A DNA stretch of 64,000 nucleotides from Nitrososphaerales archaeon (GTDB lineage: Archaea; Thermoproteota; Nitrososphaeria; Nitrososphaerales; Gagatemarchaeaceae): positions 1-64,000 of the forward strand of contig JAJTZB010000004.1 of the NCBI GenBank assembly GCA_032906765.1, in the 5' to 3' direction. Position 1 is the stretch's first letter. Each line of letters opens with the position of its first letter. Both the position numbers and the translations under genes were made by a program. Below the pieces are notes generated by a model. The model did no database searches. It was not told where the DNA came from and was given only the letters and a program-made list of their open reading frames with translations. This document shows positions 10,788 through 42,817 of the stretch, piece after piece.

Positions 10788-11333
10788 TCAGTAGCATGGC
10801 GACGACGCGCGGTTTGACTTTTCCCCCTCTTTCGAGTCTGGGTTCGGAACGAGTCCAGGTCGGACCCACGCGCTATGGCCGGCTAGTTCGCCCCCGCCCT
10901 CGACATCGGATTTAACCGTTTTGTTCAGTCTCCTGAACGTGAGCAGAATCCGTCTCAACTTGTCAGCCTTGCTAGGAACGGTGAAGCCCACCAGCCTCTC
11001 GAAGGCCGCCAGGCTTGCGTATCTCATCACTATGAGAACATGACTATCTCGTGTTGCTTTCCCTTCCCCGGCCCTTTGGTCCAAGTACACCCGAGACTCG
11101 ATGCCGACACCATCGAGAATGCGCTGAATCGTCAGGAGGAGGAACCTGTCGGTGTTGGAAATTACCACGGAACGGATGTTGGCGTACCGCTTGACTCCGT
11201 TCTTGTCTTTATGGTAATACAACCTAGGACCTCCTTCGCCGTCGCTGAATCCTCGGACATGCCTCAGTTGTTCCGAAACGGGCCAGGTGAGCATTTCCCT
11301 GTAGGGCTTGGGTGGTGGATTGGGCATTCCCAT
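10788..11333 (-). CDS. LAGLIDADG-type homing endonuclease, free-standing
   Basis: This 181-residue protein carries one LAGLIDADG-like motif at about residue 27 (VRGFSDGEGGPRLYY) followed by the usual beta strands (VVISNTDRFLLLTIQRIL, SRVYLD). A single-motif protein would act as a homodimer. The C-terminal 30 residues look non-conserved. It stands between the DUF1512 gene and the Trm112-like gene, not inside an intron or intein that I can detect. The TATA-like sequence at 11403-11411 could serve both this gene and the divergent one. Whether it still cuts DNA is unknown. Confidence 0.7.
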   Translation of the reverse strand: MGMPNPPPKPYREMLTWPVSEQLRHVRGFSDGEGGPRLYYHKDKNGVKRYANIRSVVISNTDRFLLLTIQRILDGVGIESRVYLDQRAGEGKATRDSHVLIVMRYASLAAFERLVGFTVPSKADKLRRILLTFRRLNKTVKSDVEGGGELAGHSAWVRPGLVPNPDSKEGEKSNRASSPCY

Positions 11334-11748: not shown

Positions 11749-11886
11749 GGGGACGTAGCCCAGCTAGGCAGGGCGACAGGCTCCAGTGGTCAAACCAGAA
11801 GTTTGATGACACAGCAGCGTGGATGATTAGGCATTGGAGCTGCAAAAGAAACCTGTAGACCGCCGGTTCAAATCCGGCCGTCCCCA
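11749..11886 (+). tRNA. tRNA-Trp(CCA) with a 64-nt intron
   Basis: The acceptor arms (GGGGACG with CGTCCCC), D-arm (GCCC/GGGC), anticodon stem (ACAGG/CCTGT) and T-arm (GCCGG TTCAAAT CCGGC) all pair. The loop CTCCAG places anticodon CCA. An intron of about 64 nt (11787-11850) sits after base 37, the canonical position. Near its 3' end the intron contains TGGAGC, able to pair with the anticodon loop as in a bulge-helix-bulge substrate. A TGATGA at 11804-11809 resembles a C box, but I found no clear D box. CCA is not encoded. Confidence 0.93.
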
Positions 11887-13246: not shown

Positions 13247-15559
13247 CTAATTAGTCGACGACTTGAATCTCGGCACGCCGTACACGCCATCGTACCCCGG
13301 GTCGAACTCTACCTCCCCCATCCTCATGGCAACAATGGCCTTCGCCACTTCAGCCTTGGTGACCTTTGACAGCGCCTCCTCGCCTGCGTCGATGAGCACT
13401 GCTAGCTCGTTCCCGAAGGCCTTGATCAGCTTGTCCTGCTCGTCGATGACGGCTTTGGCGTAGAGCCTGTTGACTCCTGTTGCGAATGAGATTACCTCGT
13501 ACAGCGGGAGCATGCGCTTGAACGGGATTGCGGCCGCGGGCTCGTAGCCCTCCGGGCGGTCTGCGAGCTGTTCGACCCTCTCAAGGACGCCGACAGTCAG
13601 CTTCTTGCCGCACTTGGGGCACCTGTCCTTCAGGCGGATCGAATCGGTCGGGGAGAGGGAGACTCCGCACTTCCTGTGGCCGGAGAAGTGATACTTGCCG
13701 TAGGCTGGGTCAACCTCAATCGTGAAGAGGAAGCGCTCCCTGTCCTTGGTCCGCACGGCGTCGAAGACCTCCCTGAATTCGAGCCGGTCGAGCTCGAAGA
13801 CGTTCGCCTCCCTTCCCAGTCGCCACGGGTTGGGGGAATGCGCGTCGGAGTTGGAGACCAGCGCGAGCCCGTCCAGGGACGAGAGGCGCCAGTTCATCGG
13901 AGGGTCGGAATTTCCACACCAGACTGGAATGCCATTTCTCCGAACGTAGACAACGTGGTTCGGGACAGATACACAGTAAACCATTCCGTCGAAGTCCACC
14001 CACGCTTCTGTATAGCCCTGCTTGCGTACGACTGACGGTGTAACACCGTGTTTGTTGTGTCTTAGGAAGTAGACCACCCACGCATCGTAGCGAGATTTGT
14101 ATTTCCCATCGTTGAGGGCTTTCAGGGGCATTCCCTTCTTCTTCCCCAACTTGTAGTAGGCTGACATGCCAACCTTCAGTGCGATTTCTTGAAGGTCGTC
14201 ACGCAGACGAATTGAGGTTGTCGTTGCCGAGAGGCCTTTGCCCGTCCTACCGTAGATGTGGCCGTCTCCTTTCAGGTAACTATCAAGTAGGACAGAAATC
14301 AGATGCTTGGACAGAGCTTTGATGTCAAGTGGAACGAATCTCTCATGGGAGTGGCCAAATTGTCTGAGAAACGAAAATAGCTGATAGTTCTTGACTCGGA
14401 CTTGAAAGCGGCCCCTGTTGTCATTGACCGCGGAGCGGTATCCGAGCTCTTTGAACAAACGAACAATTTCGGACACCAGACGTTTGTTTGTGTTGGAAAG
14501 AACAACGGCATAGTCGCCGTTGTTGCCTTGGGTTGTGTGACCTTCTGCAAGCCAGAGACCGAAAAACCTCAACCATGGCTTGATTGGTAACCTCTTCTCA
14601 GGGATTTTTCTGAATCCGGAGTAGAAACGACTTCCGTGCCTTATTTGAACAGCAGGCAGCCTGAAGTACTTGCTTGTCTTCCCTTCCCAGCTTCCTCCTT
14701 TGCGGAATGTCTTTGATTTCCCAAAGAGAAATCTGGCCTCTTCAAGTCTGAAAGGTTTCGGCCCTCGCGAACCAAATTGAGTAACAAAGAGTCTGTGGTT
14801 CGGAGTAACACATAGGTCCACTCTCTTCGTGCGCAATCTGTACATCTTGCCGCGGTAACTGTTCTTGATGACGCGGAGGGGCTTTTGGTACTCTATCTTA
14901 CCAAGAGATGGATTCAATGTACAAATTTCGTCGGCGTGGGTCAAGTCAGCGAACTTCTTCCAACCCAATCTGGTCAGGACTTCTGTCAGTTTATCGTAAC
15001 ATGAGAGCCCCGTCTCGATGGCGAATATCTTCCGGGATTGATCTTTGTAGCAGTCCTCCAAGGAGTCGAACCCCGACTTGCTCCCGAACACCGAGAACCA
15101 GGGAGTCCAGGCGTGAGCCGGAATCACGACGGTCGAACCTGATATTCCTGTAAGAATCTCGACGAGCTCTGCCGAATCGAGGCCTGTGAGCACTGGCCTT
15201 CCGTCCGACGCGAGGTTGCCGTACTTGGCGAGAGCGTCGTTCACCTGGGCCACCGTCTCGAGGTCGGGCGAGTAAATCAGGTGGTGCACCTTCCTCGGCT
15301 TGCCGTCCTGCTCGTAGACAGTGCTCACCTCCCCGGTCAACATCCAAGTCATTCCCCGGTACGTGAACAGGCCCGCGCCTGCAATCGGTTCCAGCTTCGT
15401 CCTCAGTTCCTCGAACCACTTCGGATGAGTGAAGTCGCCGGTTCCCAAAAGGTTGAGCCCCTTCGCGCCGGCTCCTGTTGCCAGATGTTCCAAGTCCATG
15501 TCCGCGCTCGTAGCCATCGAGTACTTCGAATGGAGTTGGAGGTCAGCGATGATTCGCAT
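13247..15559 (-). CDS. endoQ: endonuclease Q (PHP domain) interrupted by an intein
   Basis: The extein halves (residues 1-186 and 551-770, 406 residues joined) match archaeal EndoQ/TIGR00375. The PHP metal site begins IADLQLHSKYS, with LLGTGDFTHP and VSNSDAHSPNPWRLG, then a zinc-binding loop with DRCPKCGKKLTVGV, and the conserved RVEQLADR segment. EndoQ nicks DNA 5' of uracil, hypoxanthine and abasic sites. Residues 187-550 are an intein inserted just before the SDPPMNWR segment that leads into the second PHP motif. Function depends on protein splicing. Confidence 0.9.
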   Translation of the reverse strand: MRIIADLQLHSKYSMATSADMDLEHLATGAGAKGLNLLGTGDFTHPKWFEELRTKLEPIAGAGLFTYRGMTWMLTGEVSTVYEQDGKPRKVHHLIYSPDLETVAQVNDALAKYGNLASDGRPVLTGLDSAELVEILTGISGSTVVIPAHAWTPWFSVFGSKSGFDSLEDCYKDQSRKIFAIETGLSCYDKLTEVLTRLGWKKFADLTHADEICTLNPSLGKIEYQKPLRVIKNSYRGKMYRLRTKRVDLCVTPNHRLFVTQFGSRGPKPFRLEEARFLFGKSKTFRKGGSWEGKTSKYFRLPAVQIRHGSRFYSGFRKIPEKRLPIKPWLRFFGLWLAEGHTTQGNNGDYAVVLSNTNKRLVSEIVRLFKELGYRSAVNDNRGRFQVRVKNYQLFSFLRQFGHSHERFVPLDIKALSKHLISVLLDSYLKGDGHIYGRTGKGLSATTTSIRLRDDLQEIALKVGMSAYYKLGKKKGMPLKALNDGKYKSRYDAWVVYFLRHNKHGVTPSVVRKQGYTEAWVDFDGMVYCVSVPNHVVYVRRNGIPVWCGNSDPPMNWRLSSLDGLALVSNSDAHSPNPWRLGREANVFELDRLEFREVFDAVRTKDRERFLFTIEVDPAYGKYHFSGHRKCGVSLSPTDSIRLKDRCPKCGKKLTVGVLERVEQLADRPEGYEPAAAIPFKRMLPLYEVISFATGVNRLYAKAVIDEQDKLIKAFGNELAVLIDAGEEALSKVTKAEVAKAIVAMRMGEVEFDPGYDGVYGVPRFKSSTN
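13910..15001 (-). mobile_element. intein with LAGLIDADG endonuclease, inside endoQ
   Basis: The insert spans 364 residues. It starts with Cys (CYDKLTEVLTRLGWKKFADL, block A), has block B CVTPNHRLFV, two LAGLIDADG-like motifs (FFGLWLAEGHT and LLDSYLKGDGHIYG) and a C-terminal block G ending HVVYVRRNGIPVWCGN before Ser. All residues needed for class 1 splicing are present: Cys1, block B His, terminal Asn and +1 Ser. The penultimate residue is Gly instead of His, which is seen in some active inteins but may slow Asn cyclisation. Confidence 0.9.
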
Positions 15560-42198: not shown

Positions 42199-42308
42199 AG
42201 CGAGGTGGGGAAGCCAGGTACATCCCGGCGGGCTCATAAGACTCGCTGAGAAACCCGCAGAACGGTGGTTCAAAGGGGGATTATCCCCTGAAACTCCACC
42301 CCTCGCTA
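42199..42308 (+). tRNA. initiator tRNA-Met(CAT) with two introns
   Basis: Acceptor AGCGAGG/CCTCGCT gives the A1:U72 pair, and the anticodon stem GCGGG/CCCGC has three G:C pairs, both archaeal initiator features. D-stem GGGA pairs with TCCC. The loop CTCATA is followed by a 14-nt insert (about 42239-42252) before A38 and CCCGC: the canonical 37/38 intron. The T-stem GGTGG/CCACC is separated by TTCAA, a 20-nt insert with hairpin GGGG-attat-CCCC (about 42274-42293), then CT. This is a second intron, in the T-loop near 58/59. Exact ends are uncertain by A residues. Confidence 0.85.
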
Positions 42309-42309
42309 C
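42296..42309 (+). repeat. 14-bp direct repeat, copy 1 (tRNA 3' end)
   Basis: CCACCCCTCGCTAC forms the 3' T-stem, acceptor strand and discriminator of the initiator tRNA. It recurs exactly at 42804-42817, bracketing the homing endonuclease gene. Confidence 0.9.
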
Positions 42310-42773
42310 CTAATGCCGTAGAAGTCGCCGATAGTCTTGCTATTCCATTTGTGTTTCCGGTTCTTCCCACTATTGAATTCCCGTACAAAATCGACAGTCT
42401 CGCAGATTCTTCTTACGTATGATTCGTCAATCGCCACAAACCTGTTTCTCGCAGGTGCCGTGGGAAAATGGAGGAGCTTGCTTGCCAGTGGGCGCTTGAC
42501 CACAAGATACGGCAACACAATTGCAATCAGTCTCTTGACTGTCGAATGGCCTTGAACGCGAACCTCCACTTGGTTCTTCCGTCGCCTTGTGCTAAAGGGT
42601 ATCCTGTGTTTCCTCAAGACGGCTGTCACAAAAGGGAACCAAGCTCCTTCTTTCATCGAAATAGAAAAGACAAGGTCAAACCTCAATGCGCGTTCGTGTT
42701 GACGGTATATCGAGAGAGTGAAGCAACCTTCCCCGTCAATCAGCCCCGCAAGCCACGCCTCTTGTTCCGCCAA
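42306..42773 (-). CDS. LAGLIDADG homing endonuclease inserted at the initiator tRNA 3' end
   Basis: This 155-residue single-motif LAGLIDADG protein begins AEQEAWLAGLIDGEGCFTLS and has the family's later strand VEVRVQGHSTVKRLI. It should act as a dimer. The last codon overlaps the tRNA end. TTG 42773 fits a leaderless transcript from GGTTAATTAC at 42794-42803, directly next to the second 14-bp repeat. The gene and its promoter thus lie exactly between two copies of the tRNA 3' end. It may cut the tRNA gene of a strain lacking the insert (inference). Confidence 0.85.
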   Translation of the reverse strand: MAEQEAWLAGLIDGEGCFTLSIYRQHERALRFDLVFSISMKEGAWFPFVTAVLRKHRIPFSTRRRKNQVEVRVQGHSTVKRLIAIVLPYLVVKRPLASKLLHFPTAPARNRFVAIDESYVRRICETVDFVREFNSGKNRKHKWNSKTIGDFYGIR

Positions 42774-42803
42774 TCAATGGAATCGTCGCTGATTTGTAAT
42801 TAA

Positions 42804-42817
42804 CCACCCCTCGCTAC
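42804..42817 (+). repeat. 14-bp direct repeat, copy 2
   Basis: A second exact copy of CCACCCCTCGCTAC lies 508 bases from the first. It carries no tRNA 5' part upstream and so looks like the far junction of an insertion at the tRNA gene. Confidence 0.9.

Follow-up and report, generated by a model that had tools for sequence, protein, structure and literature searches.

A probable single-gene homing element behind the initiator tRNA gene of a soil archaeon, with exchange of tRNA 3′ parts by its sister elements

In fungal mitochondria, endonuclease ORFs replace the 3′ end of atp6, cox2, nad3 or atp9, the native one being displaced (PMC3630166). Such mobile ORF (mORF) elements occur in atp6 of Allomyces and in atp6, atp9, cox2 and nad3 of Glomus (PMC3630166). 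The archaeal locus described here and its sister elements share with them an ORF behind the host gene, a foreign 3′ end fused to that gene, the native end beyond the ORF, and horizontal transfer, the foreign and native ends being seen in the sister elements. An endonuclease ORF followed by a second host-gene 3′ end is found in the window and in three relatives, and different alleles in the working and displaced ends are found at the initiator tRNA genes of genomes G010, G002 and G035, at a tRNA-Lys and at a tRNA-Gln, whereas the 14 bp repeated in the window are identical. Whereas mORF elements reside in mitochondrial protein genes, the hosts here are archaeal chromosomal tRNA genes with the ORF antisense; tRNA introns are exchanged with the 3′ part, and an additional, uncharacterised protein family occurs. 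Cleavage has been demonstrated for the Allomyces element and is proposed for the element reported here. Because it resides in an archaeal chromosomal tRNA gene, the window's element is classed as a mechanism similar to the mORF type and not as a member of it.

Among archaeal tRNA genes, the tRNA-Thr(GGU) gene of Caldiarchaeum subterraneum carries a 1.9-kb insert, a displaced 5′ fragment and a gained intron, for which an integrase-type element was proposed (Sugahara et al., 2012, PMC3293823). That locus likewise has one main ORF, a displaced piece of the tRNA and a working gene that has gained an intron; there, however, it is a 5′ fragment that was displaced, and the ORF was assigned by a weak method as a putative recombinase, whereas the loci reported here have displaced 3′ parts and ORFs that are LAGLIDADG genes or members of a new family. 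Insertions of archaeal plasmids and viruses of the SSV and pNOB8 types also restore the tRNA 3′ end on one side and repeat it on the other, but they are made by an integrase, and here none was seen in a 0.5-kb insert with one nuclease gene. The intronless homing of T4 SegB, near a tRNA cluster, also involves a free-standing endonuclease beside the region mobilised, tRNA genes included; SegB-like free-standing endonucleases are phage enzymes of the GIY-YIG family and are not known to leave a displaced tRNA end. The open-access papers searched contained no account of LAGLIDADG elements that swap the ends of archaeal tRNA genes.

The initiator tRNA gene and its insert

The window, the whole 64-kb stretch of DNA analysed, derives from a soil archaeon of the Gagatemarchaeaceae (group I.1c Thaumarchaeota), whose genome is labelled G000; Candidatus Gagatemarchaeum stordalenia and two MAGs labelled Thaumarchaeota archaeon belong to the same family. 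Removal of both introns from the initiator tRNA gene (iMet) gave a canonical tRNA-Met(CAT) in ARAGORN, in agreement with the first-pass annotation, which had placed introns in the anticodon loop and T-loop (Table 1). The unspliced gene received no call from ARAGORN or Rfam and is thus easily overlooked. It was the sole match to itself in the genome at E ≤ 0.001, and its anticodon-arm pattern also occurred once. Locally, the T-loop intron folds into a helix with unpaired bases on its flanks; it is a putative bulge-helix-bulge (BHB) intron with predicted splice sites. Up to four introns (D-loop, anticodon loop, T-stem, T-loop) occur in iMet genes of the family, in combinations that differ strongly even between close relatives.

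The 14-bp repeat CCACCCCTCGCTAC is exact at a spacing of 508 bp, and no exact match of this 14-mer was obtained in 100 dinucleotide shuffles of the 64-kb window. The first copy begins exactly at tRNA position 61. Between the copies lies a sole family-matching ORF, antisense to the tRNA, whose TAG stop codon is the antisense of CTA at the tRNA end; neither an integrase, an integrase remnant nor a further recognisable gene was found in the insert. The annotation's outline of a duplicated 3′ end enclosing one LAGLIDADG gene and no integrase is therefore confirmed.

The encoded 155-aa protein matched Pfam LAGLIDADG_1 and contains a single LAGLIDADG motif, here AGLIDGEG, of which GLIDGEG is invariant among three orthologues. 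A profile of three orthologues matched the LAGLIDADG homing endonucleases I-HjeMI, I-AabMI, I-CvuI and I-MsoI in the PDB. The predicted structure (pLDDT 73, moderate confidence; only one of the five models was confident) matched I-CreI, I-CvuI, archaeal I-Vdi141I and I-MsoI in Foldseek (probability 1.00, E about 1e-5, TM about 0.65). Since it carries a single motif, as in the I-CreI/I-MsoI-type families, the enzyme is expected to form a homodimer that acts on an approximately palindromic site. It resembles the homodimeric homing endonucleases I-CreI, I-MsoI, I-CvuI and I-Vdi141I in fold, single motif and size; those enzymes are encoded inside introns, whereas the window's enzyme is free-standing behind a tRNA gene. 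Comparison of the window and G009 copies gave a dN/dS of about 0.1, which indicates, from these two sequences, that the gene is under constraint. The copy in G005 has a frameshift. No relatives of the window's endonuclease were found in viral contigs.

Table 1. Features of the iMet locus, junctions of displaced copies in type A genomes, and free-standing endonuclease-like ORFs beside other tRNA genes of the window's genome
Feature	Location	Strand	Remarks
Initiator tRNA-Met(CAT), two introns	42199..42308	+	Spliced form canonical; kept in 35 family genomes
Anticodon-loop intron, 14 nt, 37/38, one-base ambiguity	42239..42252	+	Normal anticodon loop after removal; intron there in many relatives
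T-loop intron, 20 nt, between positions 59 and 60	42275..42294	+	TTCAAAT T-loop after removal; probable splice sites
Working copy of 3′ end repeat (tRNA positions 61-73 + one trailer base)	42296..42309	+	Exact 14-bp repeat
Type A endonuclease gene, single LAGLIDADG, 155 aa, TTG start	42306..42773	-	LAGLIDADG_1 E=6e-6; PDB profile matches; I-CreI/I-MsoI fold match
TATA-like box of endonuclease gene, TTAATTACAA on - strand, abutting displaced repeat	42794..42803	-	TAAATAC-like element at same place in G005, G007, G009; putative function
Displaced copy of tRNA 3′ end	42804..42817	+	Exact 14-bp repeat; counterparts in G005, G007, G009 at 507-510 bp
Displaced-copy junction, window			..TGTAATTA then ACCACC
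Displaced-copy junction, G005			..TGTATTTA then GGCACC
Displaced-copy junction, G007			..CGTATTTA then GCCACC
Displaced-copy junction, G009			..TGTATTTA then TCCTCC
Free-standing endonuclease-like ORF	G000:C2:135552-135952		tRNA-Cys, 3′ side
Free-standing endonuclease-like ORF	G000:C12:13103-13652		tRNA-Gly, 5′ side, divergent
Free-standing endonuclease-like ORF	G000:C13:2054-3070		tRNA-Leu, 5′ side, divergent

Recurrence of the insert and empty sites in relatives

Among 400 genomes of the order, the type A endonuclease gene was present in four (the window's, G005, G007 and G009) and at no other place than the iMet locus. In all four it lies antisense directly behind iMet, and a displaced 3′ end follows at 507–510 bp; the case that would have spoken against the proposal, an endonuclease in relatives that lack the repeat, did not occur. 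The displaced copies start at tRNA position 59/60, give or take about one base (junctions in Table 1), the T-stem base is the same in the working and displaced copies of each genome (CCTCC in G009, CCACC in the other three), and all four genomes carry the T-loop intron. The iMet neighbourhood, with genes for TFIIE, an HD-domain protein and a PLP enzyme, is common across the family, which argues that the iMet site is orthologous and that the contigs are not chimeric. This recurrence at one site in four genomes bears out the description of a minimal element at an essential tRNA gene with a homing-type endonuclease as its only gene.

Empty sites, which the annotation had proposed to look for, were also seen: a second iMet 3′ end within 1.4 kb was found in seven of 35 family genomes, with an ORF between the copies in each of the seven, and in none of the other 28, one genome of the survey (G020) being read for 344 bp downstream only. 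Second CCTCGCT-like matches in G003 and G050 were discarded as chance 7-mers, and the solo 13-bp 3′ ends in G004, G012, G014, G015, G032 and G041 appear to have nothing to do with iMet. Two solo iMet 3′ ends, at G020:C5:31926-31938 and G035:C66:176780-176792, lie apart from any iMet gene. That of G020 precedes the PLP gene, which is the place of iMet in its relative G040, and the working iMet of G020 belongs to a different contig. G020, G032, G033 and G035:C66 have in common a trailer motif near CTTTGTCTYRGTGAAATYYGTC; a larger integrase-borne element behind this trailer in G020, G032 and G033 was considered and rejected, as the ORFs contained no integrase-like motif in a simple pattern search.

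The T-loop intron was present in 21 of the 35 family genomes read at iMet, and in 16 of the 28 with no second 3′ end. It is thus not peculiar to the type A invasion and was ruled out as an invasion marker. The suggestion that the intron is a leftover of the invasion is not supported by these counts or by two iMet invasions by other elements (below), which removed it.

Endonuclease identity was 69% between the window and G009, about 57% between G009 and G005, and 52% between G009 and G007, and the closest hosts are G005 and G009 (TFIIE 94.7%, PLP enzyme 73.7%, HD gene 65.1%). The endonuclease phylogeny conflicts with the host genes, from which it follows that the endonuclease gene moves. As read from these sequences, patchy presence, tree conflict and a frameshifted copy fit a homing gene that moves horizontally and decays in cycles.

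Sister elements exchange the 3′ part of the tRNA

Three further element types were found at iMet, with another LAGLIDADG gene, a 135-aa ORF and an uncharacterised protein of ~410 aa, respectively. In G010, an 821-bp insert carries a LAGLIDADG_3 gene unrelated to type A; the working iMet has the T-stem GGAGG/CCTCC, interrupted by an intron, and an intronless T-loop; in the displaced 3′ half the T-stem is GGTGG/CCACC and free of introns, and the T-loop contains one. The G035 insert carries the 135-aa ORF, and its displaced half starts at the anticodon and has no anticodon intron. The T-loop intron of this displaced half is identical to that of the relative G015, and the working half has a different one, which marks the displaced half as the native one and the working half as the foreign one. 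In G002, a 1.37-kb insert contains a member of the ~410-aa family with a broken reading frame; the displaced half has T-stem and T-loop introns, and the working half has neither. Two of these iMet invasions replaced a 3′ half with a T-loop intron by a half without one. The type D ORF had no match in Pfam, PHROG or NCBIfam and contains an LLYWCEG motif that is LAGLIDADG-like by eye only.

The ~410-aa family, which has relatives of ~750 aa, was found only in the Gagatemarchaeaceae among the genomes searched; besides iMet, it occurs antisense at the 3′ ends of tRNA-Lys, tRNA-Gln and a CAT tRNA. A good model (pLDDT 83) gave no PDB match at E ≤ 0.001; conserved E...D...QxR residues suggest a putative PD-(D/E)XK-like nuclease. 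Several copies of the family occur in G002, some in ~750-aa frames with no tRNA detected nearby. The window's own genome has a member behind tRNA-Lys (G000:C3:103498-104622), with a displaced tRNA copy 1.2 kb on that extends from the D-arm through the 3′ end; this copy has an anticodon intron absent from the working gene and lacks the working gene's D-loop intron. Working and displaced T-stems are CTCAG/CTGAG and CCAGG/CCTGG at tRNA-Gln of G009, and GCCGG/CCGGC and GAGCG/CGCTC at the CAT tRNA of G007, where the whole alignment lay within the range of the shuffles and the 3′ part was judged by eye. Because both T-stem partners change together, the displaced and working versions are whole alleles and not decayed copies, which means that one 3′ part has been exchanged for another.

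In G000, the genes for tRNA-Cys, tRNA-Gly and tRNA-Leu each have a LAGLIDADG-type ORF no more than about 120 bp away (Table 1), so that placement of endonuclease-type genes beside tRNA genes seems to be common in this lineage; no displaced 5′ or 3′ pieces above shuffles were found near these three. The search for further tRNA/endonuclease pairs in this genome that the annotation had suggested thus yielded a displaced copy at tRNA-Lys, with the ~410-aa family, and none at the other three tRNA genes. About 29 LAGLIDADG_3 matches were counted in the window's genome. One, in the window at 10986-11258 (-) in a 207-aa frame, lies upstream of a tRNA with a long intron at 11749-11886, from which ~0.5 kb and one small gene separate it; no displaced tRNA piece was found near it. 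Two more fall in one 779-aa frame at 14090-14563 (-) of the window, an intein or a two-motif endonuclease.

Origin of the repeated 3′ end and the part played by introns

We consider it probable that the insert is a minimal homing element, namely one endonuclease gene in antisense orientation directly behind its most likely target, the tRNA gene, and that the donor's 3′ part is copied in together with this gene. The enzyme would cut an endonuclease-free iMet gene in its 3′ part, for type A presumably around the T-loop near 59/60. The break would be repaired from an element-carrying tRNA gene by strand invasion that may begin in the conserved tRNA body, and copying would proceed through the donor T-arm, 3′ end and endonuclease gene to end in the repeated 3′ end, which would serve as the right-hand homology arm. 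The outcome would be a complete tRNA with a donor-type 3′ part, then the endonuclease, with the resident 3′ part left as a displaced stub. Once the element is in place, a site reaching to both sides of the repeat would be interrupted, with further protection perhaps afforded by a tRNA intron at the position of the cut. The length of the right-hand repeat, 13–17 bp, is short for recombination and counts against this explanation, as do the frameshift of the G005 copy and the moderate confidence of the structure model.

An integrase-like regeneration of the 3′ end had been suggested in the first-pass annotation. The 3′ end is indeed repeated; the working half of the sister elements, however, is an allele that differs from the displaced one in introns and in a compensated T-stem, which argues that the invader brings its own 3′ half. 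That the insert is the relic of a larger integrase-borne plasmid or virus, inserted site-specifically at the tRNA 3′ end and since reduced to its endonuclease, is unlikely, even though insertions made by an integrase are recognised by just such a direct repeat of a tRNA 3′ end, a site that archaeal elements do use (PMC3293823). Against such a relic stand the 0.5-kb insert with no integrase or remnant and the recurrence of the same 507–510-bp one-gene insert in four genomes beside three other one-gene inserts at iMet, as parallel loss down to a single nuclease gene is improbable. The displaced halves also differ in introns, and exchange between att sites would fit this only if the att site carried introns.

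In type A, the working and displaced ends agree in each genome and the repeat is short; the 14 shared bases of the window are identical, which is compatible with a swap and with a duplication, so that plain duplication of the resident end is possible there. By this account the gene was inserted behind the resident end, for instance when the cut made by its own enzyme was closed by end joining, with duplication of 14–17 bp and no tRNA part brought in. LAGLIDADG enzymes cut with 4-nt staggers, and fill-in of such a stagger would not yield a repeat of this length; the clear 3′-half swaps of the sister elements also speak against duplication, which we regard as quite improbable. The gene might instead once have resided inside a T-loop (59/60) intron, a later recombination having set an intron-plus-exon copy in front and left the old 3′ exon behind. 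This would account for the start of the displaced copies at the 59/60 site and for the T-loop intron in all four type A genomes; we nevertheless consider it very improbable, given that the gene is antisense to the tRNA, that an endonuclease inside the T-loop intron occurs in none of the family genomes examined, and that T-loop introns are found where there is no second 3′ end.

If the homing reading is followed, the introns may have a further part. In type A, G035, tRNA-Lys and the CAT tRNA of G007, an intron interrupts the working gene at roughly the point where the displaced copy, itself intronless, starts. Protection of the invader's own allele by such an intron is offered as a hypothesis, because G010 and tRNA-Gln are exceptions and introns are common in any case. 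For the window's element, a role of the T-loop intron as a shield, as the annotation had also considered, is possible, since the repeat boundary lies at the site of this intron.

The origin of introns at many positions of archaeal tRNA genes is a long-standing question. These loci preserve the resident and the invading 3′ half of one tRNA gene together, with different introns and separated by an endonuclease-type gene, so that the exchange between donor and recipient can be read directly. Another reading is thereby offered for the tRNA-Thr gene of Caldiarchaeum, and the gene-end-swapping endonuclease strategy of mitochondria is extended to essential chromosomal tRNA genes of Archaea. It is conceivable, though we would put it at somewhat under an even chance, that archaeal tRNA genes host a guild of single-gene homing elements (LAGLIDADG types and the undescribed ~410-aa family) that swap the 3′ part, and that the introns brought with it, by breaking the cut site, would drive the spread and multiplication of tRNA introns.
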